Source: Methylocystis heyeri
GTDB taxonomy: Bacteria; Pseudomonadota; Alphaproteobacteria; Rhizobiales; Beijerinckiaceae
Reading direction: 5' to 3'
DNA: 64,000 nucleotides
Assembly: GCF_004802635.2 (NCBI RefSeq)
Contig: NZ_CP046052.1
Coordinates: 2,294,001-2,358,000 of the forward strand
Part shown: in pieces, positions 28,944 through 63,905 of the stretch
How positions within the stretch are numbered: the first letter of the stretch is position 1
How the letters are laid out: each line of letters begins with the position of its first letter
The notes under the pieces: generated by a model
What the model was told of the DNA's origin: nothing
Database searches by the model: none
Seen by the model: the letters and a program-made list of their open reading frames with translations, nothing else
Made by a program: the position numbers and the translations under genes

Positions 28944-28983
28944 TTGACATACGTTTGACTACCGTGTAAGGTAACACATACAT
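28944..28983 (+). promoter_or_regulatory. Candidate integrase promoter overlapped by palindrome
   Basis: Two -35-like hexamers, TTGACA (28944-28949) and TTGACT (28955-28960), precede the first palindrome (28960-28975). A weak -10 could be at about 28978-28984. The dyad would then sit between -35 and -10, a repressor-like position. The spacing is plausible but the -10 is poor. Confidence 0.4.
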
Positions 28984-29116
28984 CGTTGTGACGAAAGGGA
29001 TTTCTCGGACGAATGCGACTCTGGATCAATCACTTACGAAACACGCCCGGAGCGCTAATTCTCTGAAAATTCTCTGAAACCCGCCACGGTAACTTGTCTG
29101 TCAGGAGTTCAAAAAT

Positions 29117-30331
29117 ATGGCCCGCATAGCGCCCCCTTTGACCGTGAAACGATGCAAGGAACTTGCGGCGATTGGGAAGACCTCGCGCGTGGAAGCGCGG
29201 GACGGGTCTCTGCCGGGGTTGTCGTTTATTTCGCATCCGGGCGGGTCTAAGTGGTGGTTTATACGGGATGGCTACCCCCGTAGCTTCCTTGGCGATTACC
29301 CGCTTGTAGAGCTTGCACAAGCGCGGGAATTGGGTAGGAAGCTGGCGGCTGAGGTCGCAGGGGAAAAGATGTCTCGTGCGAAGCTCGGGAAGACGCTATT
29401 GCAGTTGTGCGAGCGGTATTATGCAACCCGCGGTCTACGTTCGTCGGACGACGCGCTGCGGGCTATAAAAAATGTATTTAATTCTGAGACGGGGACGCGG
29501 AGCGCGGAGCTTACATCCGCCAAGCTGCAAAAGTGCATCGACAAAAAATATGCGACTGCGCCGCACATGGCGTCGAGCGCGACGCGTTACCTCTTGGCGG
29601 TAATAAACGACGCCATCCTACGGAAAGAGTGCCATCGCGAGGTCGCCGAGCTGGCTATACCCCGCGGGCGGCACAAGCGCGTCAGGGACCGGGTGATTAC
29701 TCACGAGGAGCTTCGCGCGATATGGCCGCACCTTACCGGGGCGTATGGGCTGGCGTGCCGGCTCATGTTCTATGCGATGGCGCGGCGCGAAGAAGTCACA
29801 AACGCGCTCGTGGGTGACTTCAAGGATGGGGTGTGGACCATACCCGCAGATCGCTCAAAAAATGGCGTTGCGCATGTAGTGGCGCTGCCGACGCAGGCTC
29901 GCATGATCGTGGCGGGGCTGAGCGAGGGTAAGAGCGTGCGAGCGCCGCTGTTCGAGAATAGCCATGGGAACTGCATAGGAGGGACGAGCAGCAATTGGGA
30001 TCGGTGGCAGAAACAGATTTTCAAAAAGTCTGGGACGAAGGACTGGCAGCGGCACGATTTGAGGCGCACAGCAGCCACTATGGCAGGCGAGCTTGAGATT
30101 GAGCCCCACATAATCGAGCTGATGCTCAACCATGTTGACGCTCATAGCTCACTGGCAAGCGTGTATAACCGTTCGCGCTATGGGAAGCAGCGAGGGGAGG
30201 CGTTGCAGAGAGTGGCCGACAAGTTGGACGAGATACTTACCCGAGGAGGTAATGGTGAAACGGAAGAAACCACGGGCCAAGCCGTTAACGCCGGAGCAAA
30301 AGAAAGCTGTCTGGAGCAGGCCCAAAACTAA
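29117..30331 (+). CDS. int: Phage tyrosine integrase
   Basis: A 404-aa tyrosine recombinase. The N-terminal DUF4102-like arm-binding domain is at about residues 5-90, a core-binding domain follows, and the catalytic residues are visible: R in MARREEV (~220), H and R in HDLRRTAAT (~313-316), H in LNHVD (~337), and Y in VYNRSRYG (~349-354). Directs integration at the adjacent tRNA-Thr 3' end. The 3' end of the gene contains palindrome 30237, which also carries the SD and start of the next gene. Confidence 0.95.
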   Translation: MARIAPPLTVKRCKELAAIGKTSRVEARDGSLPGLSFISHPGGSKWWFIRDGYPRSFLGDYPLVELAQARELGRKLAAEVAGEKMSRAKLGKTLLQLCERYYATRGLRSSDDALRAIKNVFNSETGTRSAELTSAKLQKCIDKKYATAPHMASSATRYLLAVINDAILRKECHREVAELAIPRGRHKRVRDRVITHEELRAIWPHLTGAYGLACRLMFYAMARREEVTNALVGDFKDGVWTIPADRSKNGVAHVVALPTQARMIVAGLSEGKSVRAPLFENSHGNCIGGTSSNWDRWQKQIFKKSGTKDWQRHDLRRTAATMAGELEIEPHIIELMLNHVDAHSSLASVYNRSRYGKQRGEALQRVADKLDEILTRGGNGETEETTGQAVNAGAKESCLEQAQN

Positions 30332-30419
30332 CGCAGGAGTGGGCTGGAGCCGGGACAAGCCCGTGGACCCGCGCGAGTATGAGACTGGATTTACCGTAGG
30401 AGGTAACAATGGCGAGTGA
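30252..30419 (+). CDS. Small basic phage protein
   Basis: A 55-aa protein, lysine-rich at the N-terminus (MVKRKKPRAKPLTPEQKKAV). The start ATG at 30252 overlaps the last base of palindrome 30237 and is preceded by GGAGG inside it. It overlaps the integrase 3' end. Its last residues (FTVGGNNGE) are encoded by the next palindrome, 30391. No family recognised. Confidence 0.6.
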   Translation: MVKRKKPRAKPLTPEQKKAVWSRPKTNAGVGWSRDKPVDPREYETGFTVGGNNGE

Positions 30420-30603
30420 CGATCCCAACGCGGCGTTTGATGCGACCATGGGTATCTTGACAACGATACAAGACGTTTTGCGCGATCGGCTGCATGCAGA
30501 GAAAGACAGAGAGGCTAAGCAAGCAACGAAGAAGGGGCTCGCTGCGGTCGAAGACATAGTAGATGCTATGACGCAGCTACAAGGCGGCAATCATGGCGAG
30601 TGA
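30409..30603 (+). CDS. Small helical phage protein A
   Basis: A 64-aa protein (MASDDPNAAFDATMGILTTI...) predicted to be helical. The ATG is two bases after palindrome 30391, whose right arm contains GGAGG. It overlaps the next gene by 11 bases; both genes start with the same ATGGCGAGTGACG, suggesting a duplicated translation start. Function unknown. Confidence 0.6.
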   Translation: MASDDPNAAFDATMGILTTIQDVLRDRLHAEKDREAKQATKKGLAAVEDIVDAMTQLQGGNHGE

Positions 30604-30841
30604 CGCTCTTAAAGCGCGAGTGGCCGCAGAGCTGCAAGCAAATATCGAGATGATGGACGAGGCCGTGTATAGGCTGACTGCGCTACTGAGCGCAGAGACG
30701 GACGTGACCGGACAGAGCATGCTGGCGAACGCGATTGCTACATTTCAAGTAGTGAAGGAGAACACGTTGGGACTTCACGACATCGCAGTGAACGCACTGG
30801 AAATGGTCGATAGAGTAACGAAGAACAGGAGCGCTCATTAA
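30593..30841 (+). CDS. Small helical phage protein B
   Basis: An 82-aa helical protein (AAELQANIEMMDEAVYRLTALL). Starts inside the end of the previous gene; its TAA stop shares a base with the ATG of the deaminase gene. Likely co-translated with its neighbours. Function unknown. Confidence 0.62.
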   Translation: MASDALKARVAAELQANIEMMDEAVYRLTALLSAETDVTGQSMLANAIATFQVVKENTLGLHDIAVNALEMVDRVTKNRSAH

Positions 30842-31368
30842 TGTTTGCGCTATCCGATCGCTGGATTGAGTATTTCTTTGACGTTGCGCAGCGCACGGCG
30901 CGCATGAGCAAAGACCCGTCAACGCAAGTCGGCGCTGTGATCGTGCGGCCCGACAAGACGATTGCAAGCACCGGGTTCAACGGGTTCCCGCGCGGCGTGC
31001 CGGATTATTATGACCACTACGAACGGCGGGAGCACAAATACCCGCGCATAATACACGCCGAGGCAAACGCCATACTCTCGTCACATGAGCCGGTGCGAGG
31101 GTATAAGATGTTCGTCACGCACTGCCCCTGCGCCAGATGCGCAGGGACGATAATACAGGCAGGGATAGAACAGGTCGCATATCCCGAGCCGAGCCCGGAG
31201 GTCGAAGAACGATGGGGAGACGAGTTCACGATAGCACGTAGCATGTTCGGGCACGCGGGCGTGTATATGCACCGATTACCCGCTGCGGTAATGCCTATGT
31301 CCACGCCTTCGGAGAAATCCGTTCGCGTCTGGGATGACTTCGCTTGCTCATTAGCTTCCCTGATATGA
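30841..31368 (+). CDS. Deoxycytidylate (dCMP) deaminase-like protein
   Basis: A 175-aa zinc deaminase: MSKDPSTQVGAVIVRPDKTI, GFNGFPRGVPD, the HAEANAI motif (~residue 71) and PCARCA (~96) for Zn binding. The substrate is probably dCMP, supplying dUMP for phage DNA synthesis. The C-terminal ~25 residues include palindrome 31276 (RLPAAVMPM). The gene overlaps the convergent terminase gene by 74 bp. Confidence 0.88.
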   Translation: MFALSDRWIEYFFDVAQRTARMSKDPSTQVGAVIVRPDKTIASTGFNGFPRGVPDYYDHYERREHKYPRIIHAEANAILSSHEPVRGYKMFVTHCPCARCAGTIIQAGIEQVAYPEPSPEVEERWGDEFTIARSMFGHAGVYMHRLPAAVMPMSTPSEKSVRVWDDFACSLASLI

Positions 31369-32725
31369 AGCCGTGCAAGCCGCCGTGGTAGGCTAGGCAA
31401 CCATACTGGAGGGCGTCTTGCGGGTGCGATGCGTCGCCTTTCTTGGACGGTGTGGGCTTTCTCACGCCGTCCTTTGTGCGTTCAAATTTATATTCGCCCG
31501 CGAGCCCTCGTATGAGCATGGGGCAGCGCGAGGCGTCCACCCTGAATTTGGCGCTTAACAGGAAATGTTCCACAGCGCCAAGTCTTGGGGCAATGTCATT
31601 TGTTGGAGCAGCGAATGCCGCGAACCCCATATTCGTGAGCATGTCGAACGAGGTCAATTCATAGAGGTTGTTTTTCGCGACGCCCGCAGGATCGCCAACA
31701 ACCGCAACCGGGCATCCTGCATAGCGCGCGCTGTAGATAGCCGGGCGCAAGCTCTGGGCGATATGCTGTTCAAGACCAATATCGAGCGCGGATACTTCTT
31801 CGAGGATGTTGACATTTCCAAGATGGTCCATTTGCATGATGATCGACCACGGGTCGCGCCCGAAGTCCTGCCCCACAATGATTAGCCTGCCGGACTGGAC
31901 TTCAATCTTCGGAACGACGTGCAGCGCCTTGTTGAAGCTCTGCGCGAATACGGCGGTTCCAGACGGATCGTTGCCGTAGATCGCGTGAACGTATCTGTTG
32001 AGCCAGTCTTGGTTTCGACCCGACTCCATAAGATCGGTGTAGTAGGTGCGGCCTAGCGCGAGTCGCTTTACGTCGTCCTCTGGCAGCTTCAAGCTCTCTT
32101 CGGTCTGGCGCAGCCATTGGAGGTTCTCGGCTTCCGGGTGCATGCCGCCGGGCTGTTTGAACACTTCCATTTTCGCTGGCGGGCGCTCCATAATGTCCCA
32201 CCAGTCCGAATGCTCTGTCGGAAAGTTTGTATCCATGACGATACCGCGCCATGTGCAAACCGGCACAGGGTATCGGCCGCAACGTCCGAAAATGCCCGAT
32301 ATAACGTCGGCGCTCATTTCGATGCACTCGGACATCCATGCGCCCGTAAGCTGCGAAGACAGAAGCCGCCGCGCGTCGTCCGGGTTCTCCATGGGGAGCA
32401 AAATCCATTCGGTGTCAACGTCGCCAATGCGAATGTAGATCGTGCTCTCACTCACGCGGTAGTCCGCCACTTCGCGGAACCAGAACATAATGTCCTTGAG
32501 AACGGTATCCTTGAGCTGCTTCAAGGTCTGGCGCACGATTGCAAAGCGCGTGCGGCGCATGCCGTCAACCGGATCGGGCGCTTGCTCGCACGCCTTCCGA
32601 AACAGCTCAAAGATACAAGCCGTCGTTTTGCCAGAGCCGACTGGACCAGCAATGAGACGGAGAAGCGCCGTGCTGCGCATGAACTCTGCGCATGTTCTGG
32701 GCGGGGTATAAACGTGGTGGGTCAC
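31295..32725 (-). CDS. terL: Terminase large subunit
   Basis: A 476-aa packaging motor. ATPase: IAGPVGSGKTTACIFELF is a P-loop near residue 28, with adenine-binding and Walker B-like regions (WILLPMENPDD, LTGAWMSECIEM). Nuclease part: IIVGQDFGRDPWSI has the first catalytic aspartate. Length fits podoviral terminases. It is on the minus strand, opposite to the structural genes, in an operon with the small subunit (ATGA overlap 32722-32725). Confidence 0.88.
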   Translation of the reverse strand: MTHHVYTPPRTCAEFMRSTALLRLIAGPVGSGKTTACIFELFRKACEQAPDPVDGMRRTRFAIVRQTLKQLKDTVLKDIMFWFREVADYRVSESTIYIRIGDVDTEWILLPMENPDDARRLLSSQLTGAWMSECIEMSADVISGIFGRCGRYPVPVCTWRGIVMDTNFPTEHSDWWDIMERPPAKMEVFKQPGGMHPEAENLQWLRQTEESLKLPEDDVKRLALGRTYYTDLMESGRNQDWLNRYVHAIYGNDPSGTAVFAQSFNKALHVVPKIEVQSGRLIIVGQDFGRDPWSIIMQMDHLGNVNILEEVSALDIGLEQHIAQSLRPAIYSARYAGCPVAVVGDPAGVAKNNLYELTSFDMLTNMGFAAFAAPTNDIAPRLGAVEHFLLSAKFRVDASRCPMLIRGLAGEYKFERTKDGVRKPTPSKKGDASHPQDALQYGCLAYHGGLHGFISGKLMSKRSHPRRERISPKAWT

Positions 32726-33249
32726 AGCGCTTCGCCTTCAATGGTGGGGGCTTCGATTGTTACGGGCGGCTTCGTGGTATCGCCGAGGTTGATCGTCACC
32801 TTGAACCCGCCGCCCGTGTTCTGTTGCTCGGGTTGCTTCTCTAGCCCCGCGATCTTACCCATGGCGGTAACTAGCGCAGCCCGCGCGGCAAGCGGGGTCT
32901 CGCGATTGTGAACTTGCGTCACCATTTCGGCGATGCACGTTTCGAGCGCCAGCGCCGCTTTCATGCGAATGCGCTTCGGCGTGTTGTCAACGCTCTCCCA
33001 TTCCGTCTTGAATTGCGCCATCAAAGTCGCAAATCGGCGGTGCTTGGTTATCAGGACATATTCTTCGTCCGATATCTCAAGGCTCTTCAGAACGTCGGAA
33101 ATCTCACCAACGCCAGTCGAGAGTTCTTTCGCAAGCGCCGTCATTTTCTCTTCGAGCGTAGCGGGTTCCGAGAAAGGGAGTCCACGCGTCGCGACGAGCG
33201 GAAGCTTTGTCGGGAGCGGATATTTTGGGGAGAACGGGTTTAACGCCAT
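32722..33249 (-). CDS. terS: Putative terminase small subunit
   Basis: A 175-aa mostly helical protein directly upstream of and overlapping terL. An HTH-like segment and a helical oligomerisation region (RIRMKAALALETCIAEMV) fit a DNA-recognition subunit; no clear sequence signature. The C-terminal region is beta-like (FKVTINLGDTTKPPVTIEAP). Contains palindrome 32855, reading LVTAMGKI. The assignment rests mainly on position. Confidence 0.65.
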   Translation of the reverse strand: MALNPFSPKYPLPTKLPLVATRGLPFSEPATLEEKMTALAKELSTGVGEISDVLKSLEISDEEYVLITKHRRFATLMAQFKTEWESVDNTPKRIRMKAALALETCIAEMVTQVHNRETPLAARAALVTAMGKIAGLEKQPEQQNTGGGFKVTINLGDTTKPPVTIEAPTIEGEAL

Positions 33250-33296
33250 TTTGGGCCTCTATTGACTTTGAGCGCATATTACCTTACACGGTAACA
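33250..33296. promoter_or_regulatory. Divergent terS/portal promoter region with palindrome
   Basis: 47 bp between divergent genes. TTGACT at 33262-33267 with a 17-nt spacer leads to TACACG, which is the spacer part of palindrome 33279-33294. The palindrome would cover the -10 of a rightward promoter and the SD region of the portal gene, whose ATG is at 33297. Its 15-bp core is the reverse complement of the core at 28960. Confidence 0.5.
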
Positions 33297-35420
33297 ATGG
33301 TCCAGACGCCCTTGCAAGCAATACCTTTGAGCGGCCCCGGTGGCGGATTACTTCGCGCTGCCGGGCCGAACGATCTGTCGGCTGCGCAATCGCAGGCTGA
33401 TGAAGCGCAGGCGCAGGCGCAAGATACGAGCGCGTCCGGCTGGGGCCAATACACGGGGCTTGCAGGCTATGTGAAGTCGCAATACGACATCATGCGCAGG
33501 CATCGTAACGACGCCGCGGCAGGATGGGCCGAGCGGCTCATGAATGCGCTCAGAGTCTTCAATGGTCGCTACAGTGCAGAGGTTATTGCGCAGATACGGA
33601 GATTTGGCGGTAGCGAGGTCTATGCGCGCACGACCGCAGTAAAATGTCGTGGGGCGACATCCCTGTTGGCGGACGTTTATCTCTCAAATGATCGCCCATG
33701 GGGGCTCGAAGCCCCGAACGATCCGCAGTTACCCGCAGAGGTATTGTCCGCGATTGCCTCGCTGATACAGCTTGAAGTGCAGTCGCATTCGCAGGCGAGC
33801 GGGCAATCGCCGGACGAACAGGCGATAATGGATCGCTACAGGTCGCTTATGGAGGCTGCGCGGCGCGCAGCGGTGAAGCGTTCGAACGATCAAGCGAAGA
33901 TCGCCGAAGACAAGATTGACGAGATTCTCGCCGAGGGCGGGTTCTATCAGGCGCTCGCTGAATTTCTCGCCGACCTCACGTTGTTCCCCTACGCCGTAAT
34001 CAAGGGGCCGGTTGTACGCATCAAGCCCCTCGTCGAATGGGAAGGGAACAAAGCGTATGTGGTCGAGGCCCCCAAGCTCACATGGGAACGCGTATCGCCG
34101 TTCGACGTGTATTGGACGCCGGGGGTCTCGCGCATCGAAGACGGAAATGTCATCGAGCGCTTGAGGGTCACACGCAAAGACCTAAACGACCTCCTCGACT
34201 TGCCGGGGTATGACCACGACGCTGTGCGTGCTGCGCTCGAAGCATATGGGCGCGGCGGTCTGGTTGATGATTGGGACCAGATGGACGCCGAGCGCGCGGT
34301 AAACGAGAACCGCGAGAACCCGCACCTTAATAGGTCGGGCATGATTTCGGCGATGGAGTTTAATGGATATGTGCAGGGTTCGTTGCTGCTCGAACAGGGA
34401 ATGGACCCGGCGTTAATCGAAGACCCGTTGCGCGATTACTTTGTGCAAGTATGGATCGTCGGGCGGTTCGTGCTCAAGGTCCAACTCTCCCCGTCCCCAC
34501 GAAAACGTCACCAATATTATGTGACTTCGTTCGAGAAAGTACCCGGAACTCCAGTTGGCAACGCCCTGCCCGACATTCTTGACGATTTGCAGAACGTGAC
34601 CAACGCGACCCTGCGTTCGCTTGTGAACAACATGAGCATCGCATCCGGGCCGCAAGTGGTAGTGAACGATGACCTTCTAGCGAGGGACGAAGACGGCGAA
34701 GACCTGTACCCGTGGAAGCGTTGGCATGTGACGCGTGATCCGTTTGGGTCGAATGCGGTGAAGCCAATTGATTTCTTCCAGCCCACGTCGAACGCGAGCG
34801 AGTTGCTCAATGTGTTCCAAACACTCGGCGGCATTGCGGACGAGCTGTCGGCAATCCCGAGATACTTGACGGGCTCGCCAAATCTTGGCGGCGGCCTAGG
34901 GCGCACGGCGTCTGGACTGTCCATGCTCATGAGCAATAGCTCTAAAATTCTCCAGACAGTGGCGGCGAATATCGACCGCGACGTTCTGGAGCCGATGCTT
35001 CAAAATCTGTTCGATCTGCTCATGCTAACAGACACGTCGGAGCTTCTCTCCGGCGAGGAACGGATTACCGTCCTCGGGACGAAGGTGGCTGCGCAGCGCG
35101 AGACGAACCGACAGCGCCAGACCGAGTTCTTGCAGATGACGGCGAACCCGGTGGACATGGGTATCATCGGGCCGAAGGGCCGAGCGGAGATACTGCGTCA
35201 AGTCGCAAAGGGCCTCGGCCTGCCGGGTGACGAGATTGTCCCCAGCGACGACGACCTTATGGCGCAGCAGGCGGCAGCGCAGCAGGCAGCGCAGCAGCAG
35301 GGTGCGGTTGGACATACCCAAGGAGGTAATGGCCAGCCGGGAGTCCAAGGGGGTAAACCCGGCCCCTCTGGCGAACAGGGGCCGCGGGTAAACCTTCAAC
35401 AGCAAACGCCCCAACATTGA
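33297..35420 (+). CDS. Portal protein
   Basis: A 707-aa portal protein of the large podoviral type. Start ATG 33297 (MVQTPLQAIPLSGPGG) lies two bases after a palindrome; a longer frame upstream overlaps the promoter region and is rejected. The core has a wing and stem pattern, with RYLTGSPNLGGGLGRTASGL then SMLMSNSSKILQ near residues 530-560, typical of this family. The C-terminus is Q/A-rich, then TQGGNG (palindrome 35314) and a Gly/Pro tail. The dodecameric portal is the entry for DNA and attaches the tail. Confidence 0.87.
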   Translation: MVQTPLQAIPLSGPGGGLLRAAGPNDLSAAQSQADEAQAQAQDTSASGWGQYTGLAGYVKSQYDIMRRHRNDAAAGWAERLMNALRVFNGRYSAEVIAQIRRFGGSEVYARTTAVKCRGATSLLADVYLSNDRPWGLEAPNDPQLPAEVLSAIASLIQLEVQSHSQASGQSPDEQAIMDRYRSLMEAARRAAVKRSNDQAKIAEDKIDEILAEGGFYQALAEFLADLTLFPYAVIKGPVVRIKPLVEWEGNKAYVVEAPKLTWERVSPFDVYWTPGVSRIEDGNVIERLRVTRKDLNDLLDLPGYDHDAVRAALEAYGRGGLVDDWDQMDAERAVNENRENPHLNRSGMISAMEFNGYVQGSLLLEQGMDPALIEDPLRDYFVQVWIVGRFVLKVQLSPSPRKRHQYYVTSFEKVPGTPVGNALPDILDDLQNVTNATLRSLVNNMSIASGPQVVVNDDLLARDEDGEDLYPWKRWHVTRDPFGSNAVKPIDFFQPTSNASELLNVFQTLGGIADELSAIPRYLTGSPNLGGGLGRTASGLSMLMSNSSKILQTVAANIDRDVLEPMLQNLFDLLMLTDTSELLSGEERITVLGTKVAAQRETNRQRQTEFLQMTANPVDMGIIGPKGRAEILRQVAKGLGLPGDEIVPSDDDLMAQQAAAQQAAQQQGAVGHTQGGNGQPGVQGGKPGPSGEQGPRVNLQQQTPQH

Positions 35421-36002: not shown

Positions 36003-36059
36003 TTGCAATTAGTTACCCGCTGGGGTAATCTTGCTCCAATCCACGCTAGGATTGGAGCA
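36003..36059 (+). terminator. Palindrome plus perfect 11-bp hairpin and U-rich tail
   Basis: Palindrome 36013-36028 is followed after three bases by TGCTCCAATCC-6-GGATTGGAGCA (36032-36059), then TTTATT. This looks like a rho-independent terminator or leader hairpin just before the gene at 36066. A possible promoter (TTGCAA 36003-36008, TAATCT 36026-36031, spacing 17) overlaps the palindrome. Confidence 0.6.
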
Positions 36060-36563: not shown

Positions 36564-36591
36564 CTTACCCGTTTGGGTATCAGGGGCTACA

Positions 36592-37050
36592 ATGGCGACA
36601 AGCACAAAAGAACTCGACCGCGAGGCTACATACGTAGGGCCTCCCTTCGACACGTTTTCGGATGTTGACACGCAGTCGGTAACGCTCGCGCTCAACATCG
36701 TCATCGACTACATAAACCAGCTCGCTACCCCTGCCGGAGTGGCGGCTCTCACGCAGGCACAGGCAACGAACCCGGCGGATAACACCATCGGCACGGTGTC
36801 CGGGTTCCTGCTAGCCAAAGCCATCGCGCAGGCGGTTGCTCCGAGGGTGTTGTCGTTCACGACAGTCGGGCAGACGACGTTCTCTCTCCCTGCCACTCCG
36901 ACGCAGCCCACTAGCGTTGTGATGGTCGTGAACAGCATCGCATACGATTACTACTCCGGCGCGTTCACGCTCGCCGGGTCAACGTTGACGTGGACGGGAG
37001 ATTTCGTTCTGAACCCGTCAACAGACTCCGTATTCGTCCGGTTCATATAA
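36592..37050 (+). CDS. Putative virion structural protein (152 aa)
   Basis: A 152-aa protein; the C-terminal half (VLSFTTVGQTTFSLPATPTQ..., then VVMVVNSIAYDYYSGAFTLA) is a beta-rich module like those found in phage fibre and baseplate proteins. Follows palindrome 36565 (12 bp). No catalytic motifs. Role by position and beta composition. Confidence 0.6.
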   Translation: MATSTKELDREATYVGPPFDTFSDVDTQSVTLALNIVIDYINQLATPAGVAALTQAQATNPADNTIGTVSGFLLAKAIAQAVAPRVLSFTTVGQTTFSLPATPTQPTSVVMVVNSIAYDYYSGAFTLAGSTLTWTGDFVLNPSTDSVFVRFI

Positions 37051-37086
37051 AGCTTACCCGGACGGATAAACTGGGCGAGGCACAAG

Positions 37087-37824: not shown

Positions 37825-37833
37825 CGGCATAAC

Positions 37834-37861
37834 GCAGTGTTACCCCTGCGGGTAACACTGC
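37834..37861. terminator. Perfect 12-bp hairpin built on a palindrome copy
   Basis: GCAGTGTTACCC-CTGC-GGGTAACACTGC: the family palindrome extended to a 12-bp perfect stem with a 4-nt loop, ten bases after the stop of the preceding gene and followed by ATTTTGG. It can act as a terminator in RNA or as the best operator in DNA. Confidence 0.6.
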
Positions 37862-37880
37862 AACATTTTGGGTAGGACGG

Positions 37881-39152: not shown

Positions 39153-39171
39153 TCTAATAACGAGGTCTATA

Positions 39172-39282
39172 ATGCTTTCGGAACCGGAACGATCACGGTC
39201 AAATGCCGGCGCGACTCTCGCGAAGAACGGCTTAGCGATAACGAACACCATCGTCAATAATGGCGGCACGGTGACAGCCTAA
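39172..39282 (+). CDS. Very small phage protein (36 aa)
   Basis: Reads MLSEPERSRSNAGATLAKNG then LAITNTIVNNGGTVTA and stop at 39282. ATG is preceded by CGAGG at a good distance. It fills the gap between two genes. Its C-terminal part resembles beta-stalk repeats and it could instead be a decayed fragment of a longer fibre gene. Confidence 0.4.
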   Translation: MLSEPERSRSNAGATLAKNGLAITNTIVNNGGTVTA

Positions 39283-39306
39283 CAGGCTTACCACAGGAGG
39301 TAACGT

Positions 39307-39819: not shown

Positions 39820-39913
39820 GCTTCATCGAGAAACCAGTTATGCAAGTTATCGGGGCGGTGGCTGGATCAGCCGCCGCCTACTTTCTTACCTCTATGGGTA
39901 AAGGTATAATCCA

Positions 39914-40216: not shown

Positions 40217-40251
40217 ACTGTTACCCACCACGGTAACTTAGAGGTTAAAGA

Positions 40252-55271: not shown

Positions 55272-58200
55272 ATGGCTGACGATAAGAACACAGATTTCGA
55301 CCCGAGATGGATGGCTCCTTCGCTTCTCACCACGCCGGAGAAGACAGAGACCGGGGCTAGCCTTCTAGACATTCCGAAAGCCGTTGGCGTTGGAGCCGGC
55401 GAGCTGGCGCAACAGGCCATATCCACGGGGCGTTATGGGCTCGCAAAGGCGGGCTTCAACAATGCTGCCGAGGCCGCCCGTGGCGTTGGCGAGCTGGCCG
55501 GAGCCGGGACGGAGGCGCTTCGCGGGAGCATTACCCCCGGAGGTAGGCGGGCCATGGACGCCCAGCTTATCCCCGATGCGGACCACGCGAGCGTGTTCGA
55601 GTCCCCTGTCTCGACCATGGCGATGAAGGCCGCTGGAGCCGCAGCCCCCGTGGCAGCGTCAATGGCTCTGCCGGAGGCGCGCGCTGCACAGGCCATCGGT
55701 GGCGCTGCGTTGCAGACCGGGCAGAACATTGACAGCACATATCGCGCAGCAGACGCAGCGACACAGAACTCTGACCAGAGCCAGCAAGTTGTCGATCAGG
55801 CGCTAACCCCCAAGAGCCTTGCGGCGGGAGCTGCGGCTGGCGCGCTTGCTGGCGGCGTGCTCGGTCCCATGTTCCACGGCTCCGGCGGGGCTAATGGCGT
55901 TGCGGACACCGCCAAACGTGTCGGCACTGGCGCGCTCGAAGGCGGCGCTGCCATGGGCGTTGCTGGCGCGCAGGGTGACGTTTCGCAGCAGAACGTCGAA
56001 CAGGCAATCGACCCGTCCCTACCCTATAATTTGAAGCGCACGCTCAAGGCCGGCGTGAATGCGGGGTTTGAGGGTGCTGCGCTTGGCGGCGCGGCAGCAG
56101 GCGTGACGGGCAACTCCGGGCGATCCGCAACGAAATACGACAAAGGGGCGACGCCGGACGCGGTGGCCGGAGCCACTCCGGCGCAGGCAAAGCCGCTCAT
56201 GCTGCCGAGCCCCCTATCCCCCGACGTAGCTCAAGAGGCTGCGCTTGCGTCCGGCAGGGATGCGCCCAGCGTAATCAACCAAGGCGCAGGACAGCAGCCT
56301 CTAGGACTTCCCGGCCCAGCCCCAAAACAGGCGATCCCTCTGCCGGAGGGCTTCGCTGGCCGCATGGACCGTCCGCCGGACTACAACGACCCGACGATAC
56401 TCGACGCCATGGCGCAGCGCCAGAACGGCGAGCAAGCGCCCACGCCAAACCCTGCGTCTTCGGACCAGCCCCTTCCGCCGGATATGGCGCAACGGTTTCA
56501 GCGTTCGAACATCGAGAATACGCAGCGTCCGCCGTTGCAGGCACTACCTGCCCCGGAGGCCAAGCGATCCGTTCCGTTTCCCGACAACTACACGGGAAGC
56601 ACGGAGCGCGCGCCGGAATACAACGATCCGGCCATTCTCGACACGTTGAAACAGAACCAGCGTCCGCCGCTGGAGCCCTTACCCGAACCGGGTAACGAGG
56701 CCCCTGCCGGCGTGTCGTCCGACACTCCACTTCCGGCGGGCGTCAACCCGGATGTTATGGCCACGATCCAGAAGGCCGCGAAGCCGGGCGTCGGGTCGAA
56801 GGGCGAAGAGGCCATCGCCAAATCCAAGAGCCGCAAGGAGCCCACCCCGGAGCCAGTCAAAGAGGCAACCACCGAGGCATCCCAAGAGCCCGTGCGCGAG
56901 TCCCGCGTTCTGCGTGACGTTTCGGACGAGGCGGTTGCACGCGATCAGTCCATTCAGGAAGAGAACAACGCCACCGTTCGCGAGAACTTGCAGGGTATGG
57001 AGCCCAAGCCCGAGGCGGGTTCCGGTGCCGGCCACAGGACCAAAGCCGAGAAAGAGGCGCGCGCGAACAATAACGCCGTCGCTGATAAGGTTGTGGAGAA
57101 GTTCAAGCCGAAGGAAAACGAGACCGCTGGCCAGCGTAAAGACCGCGCTGCGCAGATGGTCAAGACCGCACTAGAAGAGGGTTGGAAGAAGCCGGGCACG
57201 GTCAAGGATACGAACCTTGCCGATCACGGGCACAGCCCCGCGTCCATGTTGCTGACAGAGGCGCAGCGGCTCATAAGCAAGAGCAAAAACGCCTCTGACA
57301 CGCACTTCGATATGTCGGAACGCCTTCTCCGCGCCGGCACGCCGGAGGACATAAAGTCGTATTTAGACATGCGCCGGCAGCAGGGACAGGATGTCATGGC
57401 TGCGCGGAACGGCGTGAAGACGCAAGCCGAGCGCGAGGCTTCGCTGGGGCATTCGGAAGAGGTCGCCGACAGGCCACAAACCACAGAGTCCGAGTTTCAC
57501 GAGACGCCCGAGCCAGAGACCGTATCCGAGCGCCGGGCAGCGGAGGCCCAGCATGAAGCCGAGGCAAAAGCCCAGCGCGAAAAAACGGCGCAAGACCGGG
57601 CGGCACTCCCTCCTACCGAGGGAGGTATTGCTGGCGAGAGCAAAGCTGGCACGTTCAAAGTTGAGACCGTGAAACGTCGCAGCGTTACCCCTCCGGGTAA
57701 GGCAAAGGTGCTCGACGCGATCAAAGCCAAGACGGAACCCAAGCTCGAAGGGAAGGAAGGCGTAGCGAGAGCGCGCCTCGACGTTAACACAAACCCTACC
57801 GAGGCCCAGAAGCGGGCCGGAAACTACGCGAAGGGACACGTCAAGTTCGAAGAACACCCCGTAGCGATTGAGAACCCGAAGGGCTCCGAGCGTTCCGGCG
57901 TAGACACGAACGGCGAGCCATGGTCGCACACCATGCCGACGGACTACGGCTATATCAAAGGGACGAAGGGTCACGACAAGGACGCGGTGGATGCGTTTAT
58001 CGGGCCGCACGGTGAGACCGGCAAGGCGTATGTCATCAACCAACGCGACCTCTCGACGGGCGCACTTGACGAACATAAGGTTGTGTTCGGCACGCGATCC
58101 GTTGCGGAGGCAAAGGCGCTCTATGACAAGTCGTTTGGCGATGGCACTGGCCGGGCTCGCAGGCACTCTATAGCCGAGGTAACGCCGGACCAGCTAAAGC

Positions 58201-61200
58201 ATTGGCTTCGTCATGGCGACATGAACAAGCCGTATGCGCCGCACGGAAGCATATGGTCTGCCGCAGGCACACATACGTTCGTACCGACGCACTCAACGAC
58301 GCTTAGAGAAATGCTGCCGAAGCTTGCGCTACAGCGCCGCAAAGATGGCAGCATACAATCGTATATAGCGAGGCAGTTGCGGCATATCGTCGGCGATACT
58401 CCCGTGCATATCGTGGACGAGTCTGCAATCAGCGCCATGCGTTATGACACCGTGGGGCATTACGATCCCATGCACGGCCATATAGTGGTGAGGGCGACTG
58501 GCGACGCGGCCAAGTTGACGCATCGTGTTTTACACGAGGCTGTCCACGCCGCTACATGGCTTAAAATATACAAATCGAAGCGCCTGCAAGATACGCTGCG
58601 CAGCATAATGGACGACATACGCGAAGAGACGCCAAACCACTACGGCATGACGAACCCCCATGAGTTTATCGCAGAGGCGTTCGGAAACGAAGAGTTTCAG
58701 AATATGCTGGCTGCGTCGCCAATATCCGACGCACTGGCTGCGAAGCTCGGGCTGGGGGCTGACGCGAAACGGACAATGTGGCAGGCCGTAACGGATTTTG
58801 TCCGCAGGATCGTCGGGCTACAACCGCATGTGCATACGGCGCTAGACGCCATAATGCGCGTTTCAGAACGTATGAAGCAAGGCGATTTCGACGCCGAGCA
58901 TCCGCACGTTGAGAGCTTGCGCGATAGATTTGTGGCGCACCTAAAGGACGTTGAAGAAGTTCGAGACACCGCGCACGCCCAGCGCACGGCGCGACAAGTC
59001 GTGGATGATCTTGTCAACCGGATCGACGCTGCCGGGCGGGGCAAAGACCTCTCGCACTTCATGAAGACGCAGGCCGCGCAGCTCATGACCGGCCGTCAGC
59101 TCTACCAGATGACCCGGCACAAGACGGGGGAAGTGTTCTCAAGGGCGCATGAGGCCCTCAACGATGCTGCGGCGCGCATGGACACGCGCATGAAGCATCT
59201 GTTCGCCCCCGCATATGACATGGCGCGCGACGTTGCGGCCATGAGCAAGAAATACATGGGCGAGGACTGGCAGAATTATCTGGACCTTACCGACCGAGCG
59301 CAGCGCTACAACGTGCATCCAGACGTTGGGCTCGGCGACGCAAAGAACCGACACCTTGATTTGAGCCGCGAGAACACGAAGAAGGGCGACGAAGCCGCTG
59401 GCGCATTCATAAACTGGCAGGGTCGGTCCAAGCACGCTGAACTCGCGGCGCAATACAAGGCCCTGCCGGAAGAGCTGCAGAAGTTCTGGAATAGAACGCA
59501 GGACTTCTACGCAGAGCAGGCCAAGGGCGCAAAGGACGCAACGCTGTCCAAGATGCTCAACGGGACCGACTTACCGCCGGAGGTAAAGGCGAGCGCCAAG
59601 GCCGGTAAGGTGATGCTCGACGACACGAACGAGAAATACCACGGCGTCTTAAAAGCCACGAACAACGTCCACACAGCGTTCAAGCAGACAGGCCCCTATG
59701 CGCCGTCCTATCGCCGTGGTGACTGGATCACGCACGGCGAGCTGAAATACGCCAAGCCGACGGATGGCAAGCTCATAGACAAGCACACCTACGAGTTTGA
59801 CACTCGTGAGGCGGCGCACAAATACGCTACGAGTTTGGACCTTCCGACCTCGCACAAGACGGCATACTATGACTCGCTCACTGGCGAGCGATCCACCTAT
59901 GAGGGGGCAATCTCACGCGAGGGTGAGCCCATCGGGAAGTATCACGTCAAGGTAAATCCGCGCGTTTTCGAGGCCCATGAGACGCAACGCGCTGCCGGCG
60001 CACACCGGCAGGAAATGCTGGACAGCGGCAAGTTCGCCGACGTGCAGGAGGTCCAGAAACGCAACGATACCGTTGACGCCGGGCTTGAAATCTCAACGCC
60101 GCAGATGCAGGCCCTCATAGACAATGTGAGAAACTATGGCAGCCTCGGCGATAATGATCGCGCCGAGATATCGAAAGCTATTTCAGAAGCGGCTGTTACC
60201 ATGTATCCCGGCAATCGCTTCGCCAAGCGCATGTTGGGTAAGGGCCACACTCTCGGGCGTGACGAGGACATGGCGCGAGACTTCCTTGACTATGGGCGGT
60301 CGCTTTCATCGTATAGGGCTAAGGGAGAGTTCGCGCCGGAGATAAACCAGCACCTAGAGACCATGCGGAAGGATATAGACGCCAGCCGTTACCACGACAG
60401 CGTTACCGACAAGCAGGAAGTCTTCAAGAGCATCAAAGAGCGCCTTGGCCACATTGACACAGGCGCGCTCGGCGGCGACCTCAACCCGATCGTGCGCGAC
60501 GCCATGCTCTTGACGGGGCTCAAGCGCATGGCCAGCATTGGCCACGTCCTCATTCATATGGCGCACCCGTTCCAGATGTCGCTGCCCGTCCTTGCGTCGC
60601 GTCATGGCATGCGCGCTGCGGGCGAGATTGGCCGCGTCTACAAAGACGTATCAGCGCTGGACATTCTCAAGGAAGGCGGCGCAGGGTTCAAGCGCCTCAT
60701 ATCTGACCCGAACGCGCGGGCGACGAACTTCCTCACGACTGTAAGAGAGAGGCTCAGCAACCAGAAAGACGGGCGCGATCTAAACCGCATGCTCGACGCG
60801 CTCGTTGAGTCGGGGCACATCCACCCCGACAACATGTTTGACTTCACGAAATCTACCCCAGAGGGTAACGCTGCGCAGCGCGCTCTATACAGGGTGGACA
60901 ACGCATTCCGTGAAATCTCTGGCGCGGCTGAAATGGTCAACCGCATGGTTGACGCGATTGCAGCGTATCGCCTAGAGCGCTCTGCCGGTCATTCGCACGC
61001 CGAGGCTGTGAAGTATGCACAGGATACGGTAGCGTCTACACAGGGGCTTTATTCGGCGGCTAACCGCATACCGCTCGCCAAGAGCCAACTCGGTCGCATG
61101 GCGTTCCAGTTCAAGGGCTATGCACAGAACGTCATGGCATTGCTCGCCGAGAGCATGAACACGGCGCTGCACGACGTTGACCCTGCCACGCGCAAGGAAG

Positions 61201-62048
61201 CGTGGAAGCGCCTCGCCTATGTAACGGCGACCTCTGGCGTGCTCGGCGGCGTCGTCGGGCTTCCGCTCGCAATGGACATGGCGAAGGTCGCCTTGATAAT
61301 GGCGAACGCTGTAGGCGTGACCAACTACACATACGGCACGTTCGAGGACGATCTACAACAAAAGATCGCGAGCATGGTTGGCGGCGAAGGCGCGAACGTC
61401 ATCATGCACGGCGCGGGCGAGGCCGTCGGACTAAACGTCGGACACAGACTCGGCGCGGGAGGTCTACTGTTCGGCGAGCCGAGCGGATATGGCGCTGGCG
61501 ACCTCATGCAATATTTCGCCGGGAACATCTTCGGCGCTCCGACGCAAGCCATGTTCGAAACCGCCGAGGGCGCAAAGAACGTCATGGAGGGCAAGATCTA
61601 TGACGGGCTCGCGAAGATATCGCCAATCAAACAGGTCGAGGACACGTTCAAGGCTATCGGGCTCTACGCAGAAGGGAAGCAGACGAAGCGCGGAAATCAA
61701 GTGGCCCCGCCCGCATCCCTGCCGGCTGCAACGCTACAGGCCATCGGGCTCCAGCCATCAAGCATCGCAAATGCGCAGGCGGCAACCGCTCACATGCGCG
61801 AACGGCAGCTCCGCGACAGCAAGAGGCGGCAGGAGCTTATTGAACGGCTTGCGCATCCCAAGGGCGATCTGGCTAGAACAATTCAGGAGCGGGTTGAATG
61901 GAACAGGCTGCACCCAGACAACCGAATCACGGATGCGCATGTTGCAAATGCGCGCAAGACCAAGGAGACGACGCTCGGCCAGCAAGTGAACAAGCGCAAC
62001 AAGTCCGAGATAGAGACCTACAAGCGCGCCTACGGGATAACTCCATAG
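55272..62048 (+). CDS. Giant (2258-aa) polyvalent-type internal virion protein
   Basis: Residues ~1-300: Gly/Ala-rich with hydrophobic stretches. ~300-700: disordered Pro/Glu-rich linkers with internal repeats (PLPDNYTGSTERAPEYNDPA-type). ~836-976: a phage inorganic-pyrophosphatase-like domain (HPVAIENPKGSERSGVDTNG, MPTDYGYIKGTKGHDKDAVD). ~1040-1150: a zincin domain with LHEAVHAAT (HExxH at 1088-1092) and a third ligand candidate E1131 (HEFIAEAF). Remaining ~1000 residues: helical, with a hydrophobic segment near 1983-2017. These two domains are known from 'polyvalent' proteins injected with phage or conjugative DNA to protect it. Role inferred. Confidence 0.82.
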   Translation: MADDKNTDFDPRWMAPSLLTTPEKTETGASLLDIPKAVGVGAGELAQQAISTGRYGLAKAGFNNAAEAARGVGELAGAGTEALRGSITPGGRRAMDAQLIPDADHASVFESPVSTMAMKAAGAAAPVAASMALPEARAAQAIGGAALQTGQNIDSTYRAADAATQNSDQSQQVVDQALTPKSLAAGAAAGALAGGVLGPMFHGSGGANGVADTAKRVGTGALEGGAAMGVAGAQGDVSQQNVEQAIDPSLPYNLKRTLKAGVNAGFEGAALGGAAAGVTGNSGRSATKYDKGATPDAVAGATPAQAKPLMLPSPLSPDVAQEAALASGRDAPSVINQGAGQQPLGLPGPAPKQAIPLPEGFAGRMDRPPDYNDPTILDAMAQRQNGEQAPTPNPASSDQPLPPDMAQRFQRSNIENTQRPPLQALPAPEAKRSVPFPDNYTGSTERAPEYNDPAILDTLKQNQRPPLEPLPEPGNEAPAGVSSDTPLPAGVNPDVMATIQKAAKPGVGSKGEEAIAKSKSRKEPTPEPVKEATTEASQEPVRESRVLRDVSDEAVARDQSIQEENNATVRENLQGMEPKPEAGSGAGHRTKAEKEARANNNAVADKVVEKFKPKENETAGQRKDRAAQMVKTALEEGWKKPGTVKDTNLADHGHSPASMLLTEAQRLISKSKNASDTHFDMSERLLRAGTPEDIKSYLDMRRQQGQDVMAARNGVKTQAEREASLGHSEEVADRPQTTESEFHETPEPETVSERRAAEAQHEAEAKAQREKTAQDRAALPPTEGGIAGESKAGTFKVETVKRRSVTPPGKAKVLDAIKAKTEPKLEGKEGVARARLDVNTNPTEAQKRAGNYAKGHVKFEEHPVAIENPKGSERSGVDTNGEPWSHTMPTDYGYIKGTKGHDKDAVDAFIGPHGETGKAYVINQRDLSTGALDEHKVVFGTRSVAEAKALYDKSFGDGTGRARRHSIAEVTPDQLKHWLRHGDMNKPYAPHGSIWSAAGTHTFVPTHSTTLREMLPKLALQRRKDGSIQSYIARQLRHIVGDTPVHIVDESAISAMRYDTVGHYDPMHGHIVVRATGDAAKLTHRVLHEAVHAATWLKIYKSKRLQDTLRSIMDDIREETPNHYGMTNPHEFIAEAFGNEEFQNMLAASPISDALAAKLGLGADAKRTMWQAVTDFVRRIVGLQPHVHTALDAIMRVSERMKQGDFDAEHPHVESLRDRFVAHLKDVEEVRDTAHAQRTARQVVDDLVNRIDAAGRGKDLSHFMKTQAAQLMTGRQLYQMTRHKTGEVFSRAHEALNDAAARMDTRMKHLFAPAYDMARDVAAMSKKYMGEDWQNYLDLTDRAQRYNVHPDVGLGDAKNRHLDLSRENTKKGDEAAGAFINWQGRSKHAELAAQYKALPEELQKFWNRTQDFYAEQAKGAKDATLSKMLNGTDLPPEVKASAKAGKVMLDDTNEKYHGVLKATNNVHTAFKQTGPYAPSYRRGDWITHGELKYAKPTDGKLIDKHTYEFDTREAAHKYATSLDLPTSHKTAYYDSLTGERSTYEGAISREGEPIGKYHVKVNPRVFEAHETQRAAGAHRQEMLDSGKFADVQEVQKRNDTVDAGLEISTPQMQALIDNVRNYGSLGDNDRAEISKAISEAAVTMYPGNRFAKRMLGKGHTLGRDEDMARDFLDYGRSLSSYRAKGEFAPEINQHLETMRKDIDASRYHDSVTDKQEVFKSIKERLGHIDTGALGGDLNPIVRDAMLLTGLKRMASIGHVLIHMAHPFQMSLPVLASRHGMRAAGEIGRVYKDVSALDILKEGGAGFKRLISDPNARATNFLTTVRERLSNQKDGRDLNRMLDALVESGHIHPDNMFDFTKSTPEGNAAQRALYRVDNAFREISGAAEMVNRMVDAIAAYRLERSAGHSHAEAVKYAQDTVASTQGLYSAANRIPLAKSQLGRMAFQFKGYAQNVMALLAESMNTALHDVDPATRKEAWKRLAYVTATSGVLGGVVGLPLAMDMAKVALIMANAVGVTNYTYGTFEDDLQQKIASMVGGEGANVIMHGAGEAVGLNVGHRLGAGGLLFGEPSGYGAGDLMQYFAGNIFGAPTQAMFETAEGAKNVMEGKIYDGLAKISPIKQVEDTFKAIGLYAEGKQTKRGNQVAPPASLPAATLQAIGLQPSSIANAQAATAHMRERQLRDSKRRQELIERLAHPKGDLARTIQERVEWNRLHPDNRITDAHVANARKTKETTLGQQVNKRNKSEIETYKRAYGITP

Positions 62049-62188: not shown

Positions 62189-62189
62189 C

Positions 62190-62450: not shown

Positions 62451-62567
62451 TTACCCTTCGAGGTAATGCCGAAAAATGACGTGCATTACAAGGAACCCTA
62501 GACCGGCAGCCGCCCCCACTATGGCTGCCGCTACCGTAAACAGAATGTCTGCTATTATTGATCGCAT
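62451..62567 (-). CDS. Small single-TM membrane protein (38 aa)
   Basis: Minus strand: MRSIIADILFTVAAAIVGAA then AGLGFLVMHVIFRHYLEG. One hydrophobic helix (LFTVAAAIVGAAAGLGFLVM) with a short charged tail. SD AAAGG lies 11 bases upstream. It overlaps the end of the HTH gene at 62555 and ends inside palindrome 62451, which holds its stop codon. Candidate for a superinfection or regulatory membrane peptide. Confidence 0.5.
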   Translation of the reverse strand: MRSIIADILFTVAAAIVGAAAGLGFLVMHVIFRHYLEG

Positions 62568-62815
62568 GGCGGCGACACCTTTCTTCTCACGATGATTTCA
62601 TAACCGAGCACGTCTAGGACTGCTTCCAGCGTTATTATCGACGGCCCGCGCTTTCCGACTGCCCACCGGCGCAGCATATCACGGTTCACGCCGGCCTTCT
62701 CGCATATGACTTCCAAGCTCATAGGGCTTGTTCTGGCCGCGTCTACGGCGAGCGCTACGAACCTATGAACGCTTACGCCCGGAGCTACTCGTATGCTTGT
62801 GCGCAACCTACACAT
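62555..62815 (-). CDS. Small HTH (XRE-like) protein 1
   Basis: An 86-aa protein with an HTH-like segment (SLEVICEKAGVNRDMLRRWA, residues ~33-52) and the C-terminal signature TLEAVLDVLGYEIIVRRKVS. The second half closely matches its neighbour at 62815, so the two are tandem paralogues. Starts on the base where the upstream gene ends (62815). A phage regulator; candidate reader of the palindromes. Confidence 0.68.
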   Translation of the reverse strand: MCRLRTSIRVAPGVSVHRFVALAVDAARTSPMSLEVICEKAGVNRDMLRRWAVGKRGPSIITLEAVLDVLGYEIIVRRKVSPPCDQ

Positions 62816-63069
62816 TACTTCGCGACCTTACGTAGTATAAGTTCGTAACCGAGCGCATTTAGAACGGCCTCTATGTTGGCCAACGTCGGGCTGCACGATC
62901 CGCGCTTCCAATGGCTAATGAGACTGGCGTCGATCCCAGCCATCTTGGCTACGGAAACAACAGTTTTTGATTTCTTGCGCGCCTCTCCTAGCGCGAAGCG
63001 AATGAATGGGTGCACTGCGGGGTGGGGTGATTTCTCTGGCACAATCAGTCCTCCCGAAACCCAAGCCAC
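62815..63069 (-). CDS. Small HTH (XRE-like) protein 2
   Basis: An 84-aa protein with an HTH segment (VSVAKMAGIDASLISHWKRG, residues ~38-57) and the C-terminal signature NIEAVLNALGYELILRKVAK shared with protein 1. It overlaps the ligase end by 25 bp and precedes protein 1, all on the minus strand. Together they may act as a heterodimer or as two operator readers; inferred. Confidence 0.68.
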   Translation of the reverse strand: MAWVSGGLIVPEKSPHPAVHPFIRFALGEARKKSKTVVSVAKMAGIDASLISHWKRGSCSPTLANIEAVLNALGYELILRKVAK

Positions 63070-63905
63070 ACCGGAAAGCGTGGGACGCCCTTTTTAGAAA
63101 GCTCCTGATATTTGAACGTGATTACCCTGCCGGGTAACTGGTCACGAGAGGACCAATATTCGGCGCGCTGGTCATCAGTAAACCCCGACCCTACTTCGAA
63201 CGTGACGCCGAAGAACTGCACTTTGAGAGCGCCGAGGGTTCCTCCCGGCACGAGGCCCTCTTTCTTTTTGGATCGCTTGGTGTGTCCGATGGCGTCTTTG
63301 GTCGCTTCGTTCTCATTCAGCATAAGCTCTACTGACCCAACGATGGTAGCCTCTGCGTCATACCAGCGTTTGTATTTCATCAGCGCACCCTCTTTGAGAG
63401 TGCTCCTGCCTAGCTTGTATCCTGCTTCTGGATTGCGCAGCATAATACCCTCATAGCCTGCCTGCGCGCAGTATTCCTCTGCGGCGATAAGCTCCATAAG
63501 GTTTGCAATCTCCCACTGGTCAACAATCTTTACCCATGGCGGTAGCTTGTAAGATTGTAGCTCTGTGAGGCGCTCGCGAAACGGTATGTTGGCGTAGGCT
63601 AGGTCGAACACATGATGCTCAAAGTTCGACACAGCGTCGCGCGACATGACGATTGATTGCACGCCGTTAAAGTCCTTACCCGGAACCATCAGCTCGCCAT
63701 CAAGCAAAGTCAGAGGAAACACCCTATGAGCTTCTCTGAATATGTTGTATATGTGGCGGTTTGGAATTTCCTCAAACTTTCTGGACATAGGAGCCCCATC
63801 GTCGGCTGCGGCGATGCACCTTATTCCGTCCAGCTTGGGCGAAGCGATAAGAGGATATGTGAGGTCGTCGAAATTGTCGAGCGTTGCGGCGAGCATGGGT
63901 TTCAT
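63045..63905 (-). CDS. ATP-dependent DNA ligase (phage type)
   Basis: A 286-aa ligase with the minimal nucleotidyltransferase and OB domains. Motif I: SPKLDGIR (K24, adenylated), motif III: LLDGELMV, motif IV: EGIMLRNPEAG, motif V: LMKYKRW. T7-like phages use such enzymes to seal Okazaki fragments and repair nicks. SD AGGAGC precedes ATG 63905. It is the first gene of the minus-strand set leading to the two HTH proteins and overlaps the first. Palindromes 63122 and weak 63530 lie within it. Confidence 0.92.
   Translation of the reverse strand: MKPMLAATLDNFDDLTYPLIASPKLDGIRCIAAADDGAPMSRKFEEIPNRHIYNIFREAHRVFPLTLLDGELMVPGKDFNGVQSIVMSRDAVSNFEHHVFDLAYANIPFRERLTELQSYKLPPWVKIVDQWEIANLMELIAAEEYCAQAGYEGIMLRNPEAGYKLGRSTLKEGALMKYKRWYDAEATIVGSVELMLNENEATKDAIGHTKRSKKKEGLVPGGTLGALKVQFFGVTFEVGSGFTDDQRAEYWSSRDQLPGRVITFKYQELSKKGVPRFPVWLGFRED

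Follow-up and report, generated by a model that had tools for sequence, protein, structure and literature searches.

The prophage and its palindromes

The window analyzed here, a stretch of 64,000 nt from Methylocystis heyeri (assembly GCF_004802635.2, NZ_CP046052.1:2,294,001-2,358,000, forward strand), contains the left part of a prophage that carries many dispersed copies of the palindrome TTACC-N6-GGTAA. The prophage is bounded by a 45-bp exact direct repeat, part of a tRNA-Thr gene, at 28884-28928 (attL) and 88516-88560 (attR). The latter position is in continued numbering, in which window positions are prolonged past the right end; the next 36 kb were also fetched, and L007 and L008 are labels of DNA stretches there. 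The full prophage measures ~59.6 kb, extends 24.6 kb past the window and is ~1.7 times longer than its part in the window. The element looks like a temperate podovirus-like phage. Its features in the window are listed below, and an SNF2 helicase, a PD-(D/E)XK nuclease, DNA polymerase A, and a DUF2201 protein are encoded to the right of the window.

28884-28928, attL, 3' part of tRNA-Thr(TGT), 45-bp repeat, left prophage edge; exact copy at 88516-88560
28959-28974, site CTACCGTGTAAGGTAA, one mismatch
29117-30331, + strand, tyrosine integrase gene (phrog_1, E 1e-38; PF00589)
29587-29603, site with spacer 7, both arms exact
30237-30252, exact site
30391-30406, exact site
31276-31291, exact site
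31295-32725, terminase
32855-32870, exact site
33207-35420, portal-like head-tail gene
33279-33294, exact site
33729-33744, site, one mismatch
35314-35329, site, one mismatch
36013-36028, exact site
36565-36580, site, one mismatch
37054-37069, site, one mismatch
37840-37855, exact site
39288-39303, exact site, 3 nt upstream of the ATG at 39307
39886-39901, exact site
40221-40236, exact site
40484-40499, exact site
41569-41584, exact site upstream of the major capsid gene
41597-42616, major capsid gene
42617-42632, exact site directly after the major capsid gene
43502-43517, site, one mismatch
44279-44294, site, one mismatch
44726-44741, site, one mismatch
45635-45650, exact site
46253-46268, exact site
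46621-46635, site with spacer 5, both arms exact
47426-47442, site with spacer 7, both arms exact
47477-50008, internal virion protein
48218-48233, exact site, intragenic
49225-49241, site with spacer 7, both arms exact
50354-50369, exact site, intragenic
51181-51196, exact site overlapping the start of gene 51189-52292
52293-52308, exact site between genes
53380-53395, site, one mismatch
54454-54469, site, one mismatch
55272-62048, gene for a 2258-aa protein
55531-55546, site, one mismatch
56679-56695, site with spacer 7, both arms exact
57685-57700, exact site within the 2258-aa gene
59571-59586, exact site within the 2258-aa gene
60853-60868, site, one mismatch
62451-62466, exact site
62555-63069, - strand, pair of small genes for HTH_3 proteins of 86 and 84 aa (Pfam match, E about 1e-5)
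63045-63905, ATP-dependent ligase
63122-63137, exact site
63530-63545, site, one mismatch, last in the window

Exact copies of TTACC-N6-GGTAA numbered 23 in the window, all within 30237-63137, against 0.01 expected from 100 dinucleotide shuffles. With at most one mismatch there were 36 copies, against 0.51 expected, spanning 28959-63545. When 5- and 7-nt spacers were allowed, the total was 41 sites: both arms were exact in 28 (23 N6, four N7, and one N5), and the other 13 had one mismatch. This recount reproduced the total of 41 reported in the initial annotation and its view that the array is not due to chance, and replaced the earlier split into 33 intact and eight weaker copies. The form TTACCC-N4-GGGTAA, wrongly ascribed there to most copies, was present at eight sites in the window and 12 in the whole prophage.

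In the 4.73-Mb genome of M. heyeri, all 43 exact copies were located within 57 kb (2324237-2381593), inside this one prophage, with none in the 4.67 Mb of host DNA outside it. Reversed, the pattern occurred four times in the whole genome. The family is confined to the prophage, as had been claimed, and the equal density in host DNA that had been named as a sign to the contrary was not seen. By weight matrix, the whole prophage contains 77 sites, one per 0.78 kb. The first starts 30 bp inside attL, and 36 further sites lie right of the window, the last starting at 87578 (continued numbering); a strong one, TTACCCGACAGGGTAA, is at 83100. Three identical sites, TTACCTCCAGTGGTAA, stand ~240 bp apart at L007:12114, 12354, and 12590 (76114, 76354, and 76590 continued), two of them directly preceding minus-strand genes of 71 aa, and probably reflect a local duplication that copied the site.

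Arrays in related phages and conservation of the sites

Relatives were collected by a scan of IMG/VR with the major capsid protein, which returned 196 relatives, the best 80 of which were kept. Twenty of the 80 records were fetched whole (G079 minus its last 482 bases), namely, all 17 over 40 kb and L026, L042, and L068, chosen after palindromes had been seen in them. A phage collection search with one 8-kb stretch (37010-45000) found four Rhizobium phages; RHph_TM29 (TM29; 60,940 bp) contains 25 exact copies. The 20 records, TM29, and the M. heyeri prophage made up the comparison set of 22 contigs. Matrices were built per contig, with five Markov controls each; matrix site counts lean toward the contigs from which the matrices derive, and exact-word counts are unaffected.

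The word TTAC-N7/8-GTAA peaked sharply at these spacings in 18 of the 22 contigs, and control words were flat. Palindromes of TCACTC/TAACTC occurred instead in G061, G075, and G080, and G079 had no array of either type. Matrix arrays were found in 19 contigs (18 relatives and the M. heyeri prophage), with 27-98 sites each (77 in the M. heyeri prophage, 62 in TM29) compared to 0-3 in the Markov controls, and with a density of about one per kb in the relatives. The consensus word is either (G)TTACC/T, spaced by 5-7, or TNACTC, spaced by 4-6, and it differs by lineage. It reads TTACCC or GTTACC (most spacers 6, or most spacers 5), TTACTC, GTTACT (most spacers 5), or, in G061, G080, and L239, a locus found through the candidate gene described below, TNACTC; in G075, the spacer is 4. 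Over the family the spacer ranges from 4 to 7, and within one phage it differs by a base or two.

The array is associated with phage DNA in other hosts, too. A GTDB scan with the capsid protein gave 70 relatives, two Bradyrhizobium genomes among them. In Bradyrhizobium SA-3 (8.7 Mb), five of six exact sites were on a 60.6-kb phage contig with an integrase at the contig end, and in strain 139 (7.9 Mb), all nine were on two contigs carrying phage genes. No TTAC-type array was found in the capsid-side stretches (at least 8 kb) of distant capsid relatives, where the nearest thing was three copies of TTAACC-N2-GGTTAA in L159. A separate repeat family, 18 GTGCG-N4-CGCAC palindromes partly in tandem at 24-bp steps, was observed in the capsid neighborhood of the distant relative Candidatus Magnetomicrobium (L167, 499-17846).

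Site positions are conserved between relatives. Across 17 contig pairs sharing alignments of 15 kb or more (71-83% identity), 224 of 333 sites had a site at the same place in the relative, compared to 0.1-1.3% by chance; the pairs share contigs and are not independent events. In retained pairs with equal spacers, the arms were 94% identical (1806/1920), a value raised in part by the requirement that both members score as sites, and the spacers 69% (479/696). A further 32 retained pairs differed in spacer length. Between lineages, both arms of homologous sites were switched together, for example, TTACCCTGCCGGGTAA versus TTACTCTGCCGAGTAA; five exact cases were counted, in one direction, and G067 and G068 are near relatives.

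The unbiased test of selection is the comparison of third codon positions, which included intragenic sites regardless of their retention in the relative (273 comparisons, 187 distinct sites). Identity there was 72% in the arms with arm position 2 omitted (485/675), 60% in the spacer (304/508), and 57% in the far flank (4757/8344), with a P value of 2e-14 that ignores shared pairs. Codon use, earlier named as a possible cause, is not borne out by this conservation. It is scarcely credible that a host factor, codon use, or a spreading repeat (miniature inverted-repeat transposable element or repetitive extragenic palindrome) makes the array: nothing beyond repetition itself speaks for such an origin, and it has to face the absence of exact sites from the host's other 4.67 Mb, the conservation of the arms at third codon positions, sites both in and between genes, and spacers that differ between copies.

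Placement, spacing and the nature of the site

Gene placement was analyzed with our own simple gene caller in 18 contigs. Among 438 exact-arm sites, 183 were intergenic, compared to 70 expected, and 54 ended 0-9 nt before a start codon (12.3% versus 1.0% for random positions, a 12-fold excess). Of 283 spacer-6 matrix sites at most 150 nt from a start, 239 had a perfect right arm and 168 a perfect left arm, with GGAG on the spacer side; the right half-site is often the Shine-Dalgarno sequence.

The sites had been attributed initially to either a dimeric protein or an RNA hairpin. As hairpins, with a TTACC stem and a 4- to 7-nt loop, they would control translation or mRNA stability, many by masking the Shine-Dalgarno sequence, a function suggested by the stem-loop geometry and by the 54 sites that immediately precede start codons and whose right arm falls in the Shine-Dalgarno sequence. 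The variation among 419 exact and 532 one-mismatch sites counted in 18 contigs shows no hairpin signature. In the 469 one-mismatch sites with known reading direction, changes forming G.U pairs in the transcript sense were about as frequent as their mirror-image A.C changes (93 versus 88, P = 0.77). The commonest arm change, T2 to A (197/532), breaks the pair; C or A at arm position 2 was frequent in G061, G075, G080, and L239. The bases adjoining the arms, inner and outer, were no more complementary than independence predicts, with no covariation of inner or flanking pairs. No Rfam family matched in window positions 28800-64000, and 255 of the 438 sites are within genes. Hairpins are therefore very improbable. 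By the mismatch and neighbor tests, each half-site varies independently, following a single matrix, as would be seen with a dimeric protein on DNA, and the dimeric DNA-binding protein is the part of the initial alternative that stands as the best reading.

It is quite improbable that the palindromes are a self-mark other than an operator, namely, bipartite, Chi-like, or restriction-like targets recognized by a methylase, nuclease, or recombination system of the phage. A bipartite palindrome with a variable spacer does resemble type I targets, and genes for a PD-(D/E)XK nuclease and an SNF2 helicase are present in the phages. However, these enzymes are common to lineages whose words differ, and neither the gene-start excess nor the positional conservation is expected of such a mark.

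The sites are commonly spaced more evenly than by chance. In the M. heyeri prophage, the coefficient of variation (CV) of the spacing was 0.54, compared to 1.15 under a null model keeping the coding and intergenic numbers and 0.95 under one allowing at most one site per gap; the largest gap was 1957 bp, with 4646 bp expected. Of the 19 contigs, 16 were significantly even (P < 0.05) by the first null model and 11 by the second. It is not general, because spacing was random in G066 and in the SA-3 phage (35 sites, CV 1.05, P = 0.78) and leaned to clustering in G073 and G078.

This evenness brings in the main alternative to an operator function, in which a similar phage protein would use the array to fold, protect, segregate, or package the DNA as a phage nucleoid, with secondary effects on transcription. 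Such genome organization is possible, although rather unlikely. It is suggested by the regular spacing under both nulls, by sites that run through early and late genes and are uniform in coding DNA, by arrays in phages without a detected integrase, and by the candidate gene described below, which is at the upstream end of the non-structural block and may be expressed early. Against it stands the 12-fold site excess right before start codons, and evenness is missing in G066, G073, G078, and the SA-3 phage. ParB_N (PF02195), the domain of the binder in a ParB/parS centromere, was found in none of the 18 relatives, a search that left the M. heyeri prophage outside and does not exclude more distant binders.

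The candidate binder and the proposed function

The binder should be phage encoded because the rest of the host genome contains no exact site. Clustering of 1352 called proteins showed that the most widespread non-structural family, present in 18 of the 22 contigs, is unannotated. It was present in 18 of the 19 array contigs, the exception being G076 (47.9 kb, without end repeats). The M. heyeri prophage has two paralogues (L008:463-999 and L008:1674-2858, minus strand) at its right end, at the upstream end of a leftward block of non-structural genes, a position from which the gene may be expressed early; the TM29 member is QIG67038.1 (EVB31_028). AlphaFold models were confident and all-helical (pLDDT 92.6 and 89.9), and fold searches with them gave no convincing known fold of any kind.

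When loci were fetched by the candidate gene alone, all 13 further loci (11 from IMG/VR and two from Bradyrhizobium) carried an array, with TTACC or TTACT words in 12 and TNACTC words in L239; eight returned loci inside contigs already used were dropped, and of the 13 kept, several are close to such contigs or were in the capsid list. Motif distance correlated with protein distance most highly, but not uniquely so, in this family (r = 0.68), and less in structural and packaging proteins (0.41-0.56). No match to the family was found in the 31 genomes searched of 68 with distant capsid relatives, an absence that is weak because the profile search had no positive control. Judged from sequence comparisons, this all-helical family is the most likely candidate for the binder, a tentative assignment.

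The two HTH_3 (XRE type) proteins encoded at 62555-63069, proposed in the initial annotation, would form a dimeric repressor of the array. Their Pfam matches are just above the cut-off, and sites flank their genes (63122 and 62451). Among the 18 array-bearing relatives, HTH_3 was detected at E ≤ 0.01 in seven, five of them over the Pfam cut-off, and clustering added G065 and G068, so that homologues or other HTH_3 proteins occur in nine, two of which have sub-cut-off matches only. With the 84-aa protein as the query, four of the 22 records matched. None was found in the other nine relatives, including TM29, G071, and G074, which have 62-98 sites. The pair is thus not supported as the common binder of the family, and a role as repressor of the array is improbable.

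With moderate confidence, we propose that the palindromes are DNA operators tiling the genomes of podovirus-like alphaproteobacterial phages, bound by a phage-encoded, probably dimeric protein that would silence the phage genome-wide. The sequence-specific protein would bind sites across the whole phage genome and read each arm separately, tolerating differences in the spacer. Once bound, it would act as a road-block to RNA polymerase both at gene starts and inside genes, so that a single regulator could shut phage transcription genome-wide, like the Cluster A stoperators, and the symmetric site would free the road-block from orientation. Silencing by road-block is the favored function and a genome-organizing role its main rival; the two need not exclude each other. 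More speculatively, and with considerable doubt, the array may represent a phage-encoded, sequence-specific chromatin, in which the new helical family, anchored at roughly regular intervals of ~0.8-1 kb across the phage genome, coding and non-coding DNA included, silences and/or organizes the phage chromosome, and the anchor word changes in concert at dozens of sites between lineages.

Several observations weigh against operators read by this candidate. Primase (r = 0.68) and a 393-aa protein (0.67) correlate with the motif nearly equally well. The candidate family matched nothing in Pfam or NCBIfam, gave nothing below E 0.027 against PHROG, and had no convincing PDB match and no recognizable HTH, and the core is neutral to acidic in many members. 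A site was at most 80 bp upstream in nine of 20 copies of the candidate gene, fewer than for several other genes. The majority of exact-arm sites (58%) are within called genes, and sites in genes over 600 bp are spread evenly from start to end. No promoter box at a fixed distance and no further conserved box was found around the sites, and the start-codon excess may be partly due to GGAGGTAA doubling as Shine-Dalgarno sequence and half-site. A tyrosine integrase was found in G064, G066, and G073, and none in the other 15 of the 18 array-bearing viral records searched, most of them possible fragments; TM29, which is a complete genome, and G065, G069, and G074, which have terminal repeats, are among the latter. 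The comparison with stoperators made initially is supported, and prophage silencing alone may be too narrow a description for an array present in these 15 records.

Other genes in and beside the prophage were also observed. Beside the integrase, a dCMP deaminase-like gene (30841-31368; phrog_174, E 2e-46), part of which matches the PADLOC dCTPase model (E 3e-25), possibly functions in nucleotide metabolism or defense. A DUF2201 metallopeptidase/VWA protein beside an ATPase (L007:12792-14162 and 14582-15679) forms a conserved phage gene pair, each member being present in 16 of the 22 contigs. At the right prophage end, a 497-aa open reading frame (L008:4599-6092, + strand; 86599-88092 continued), found only in the M. 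heyeri phage by protein clustering, has by eye a GIY-YIG-like N-terminus and three HTH-like repeats; against Pfam, it matched just HTH_24 (E 0.025) and Ntox34 (E 0.029), both sub-cut-off. Left of the prophage, a DUF932 gene (24268-25464) has 92-93% identity to its best relatives and occurs in many alphaproteobacteria, and one relative (89%) is named as plasmid-borne. Named relatives of one gene left of the prophage are alphaproteobacterial, for example, Methylocella and Bradyrhizobium. By such sequence matches, an integrative element or a plasmid-derived island may make up the window's left part.

Dispersed repeats have been described in several phage groups, to which the array was compared. 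The stoperators of Cluster A mycobacteriophages (L5, Bxb1, and TipsytheTRex) are 13-bp, asymmetric, transcription-oriented sites bound by a monomeric repressor with an HTH and a second DNA-binding domain (PMC9283540, PMC6550527). Both arrays comprise more than 20 sites through the phage genome (77 here, 27-98 in the 19 contigs) with some in short intergenic gaps (here 183 of 438 are intergenic versus 70 expected, 58% being in genes). The consensus differs among Cluster A subclusters together with the repressor and here by lineage, with the candidate at r = 0.68 and other early genes nearly equal. Unlike in Cluster A, the sites here are dyads with mirrored arms and spacers of 4-7, about half inside genes, and no HTH protein common to the family was found in searches that did not include an L5 repressor profile.

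Closest in form is the 17-bp repeat TGTTCGG-N3-CCGAACA of Cluster O mycobacteriophages (Corndog and kin), present in more than 30 copies (PMC4351075), likewise a dyad with fixed arms and a variable center, in and between genes, of phages that are not obviously temperate. It differs in sequence, host phylum, and spacer, fixed there at 3; role and binder are unknown there, too. The SPbeta element SPBRE of Bacillus subtilis, with nine ChAP-seq peaks and a 15-bp motif described as intergenic (PMC10516654), is similarly a repeated prophage element, there read by one phage master repressor, MrpR, of the unusual tyrosine-recombinase fold. In contrast to MrpR, the candidate here is not recognizably of that fold, although the absence of a fold match proves nothing. 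The T1-type repeats (TLS, Stevie, and T1), 21-22 nt in 16-21 dispersed copies, were compared with stoperators by their authors; unlike the sites here, they are asymmetric, oriented, and predominantly intergenic, in TLS ~76 bases upstream of starts (PMC11447400, PMC4319613).

Dispersed operator arrays (Cluster A, SPBRE/MrpR) and dispersed dyads of unknown role (Cluster O) are thus already known. As far as the literature searched goes, the phage group, the symmetric spacer-tolerant site, its density and spacing in coding DNA, the family-wide paired change of consensus, and an unannotated protein family as candidate binder are new. Genomes can be screened cheaply for this phage family by means of the site word. 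One alphaproteobacterial phage family provides 19 measured arrays with a lineage-specific consensus and many positionally conserved sites; symmetric sites remove the question of orientation, and the candidate binder is compact. Direct tests are possible in this family of the binding code, of how specificity changes simultaneously at about 70 sites, and of whether the array serves silencing or compaction.

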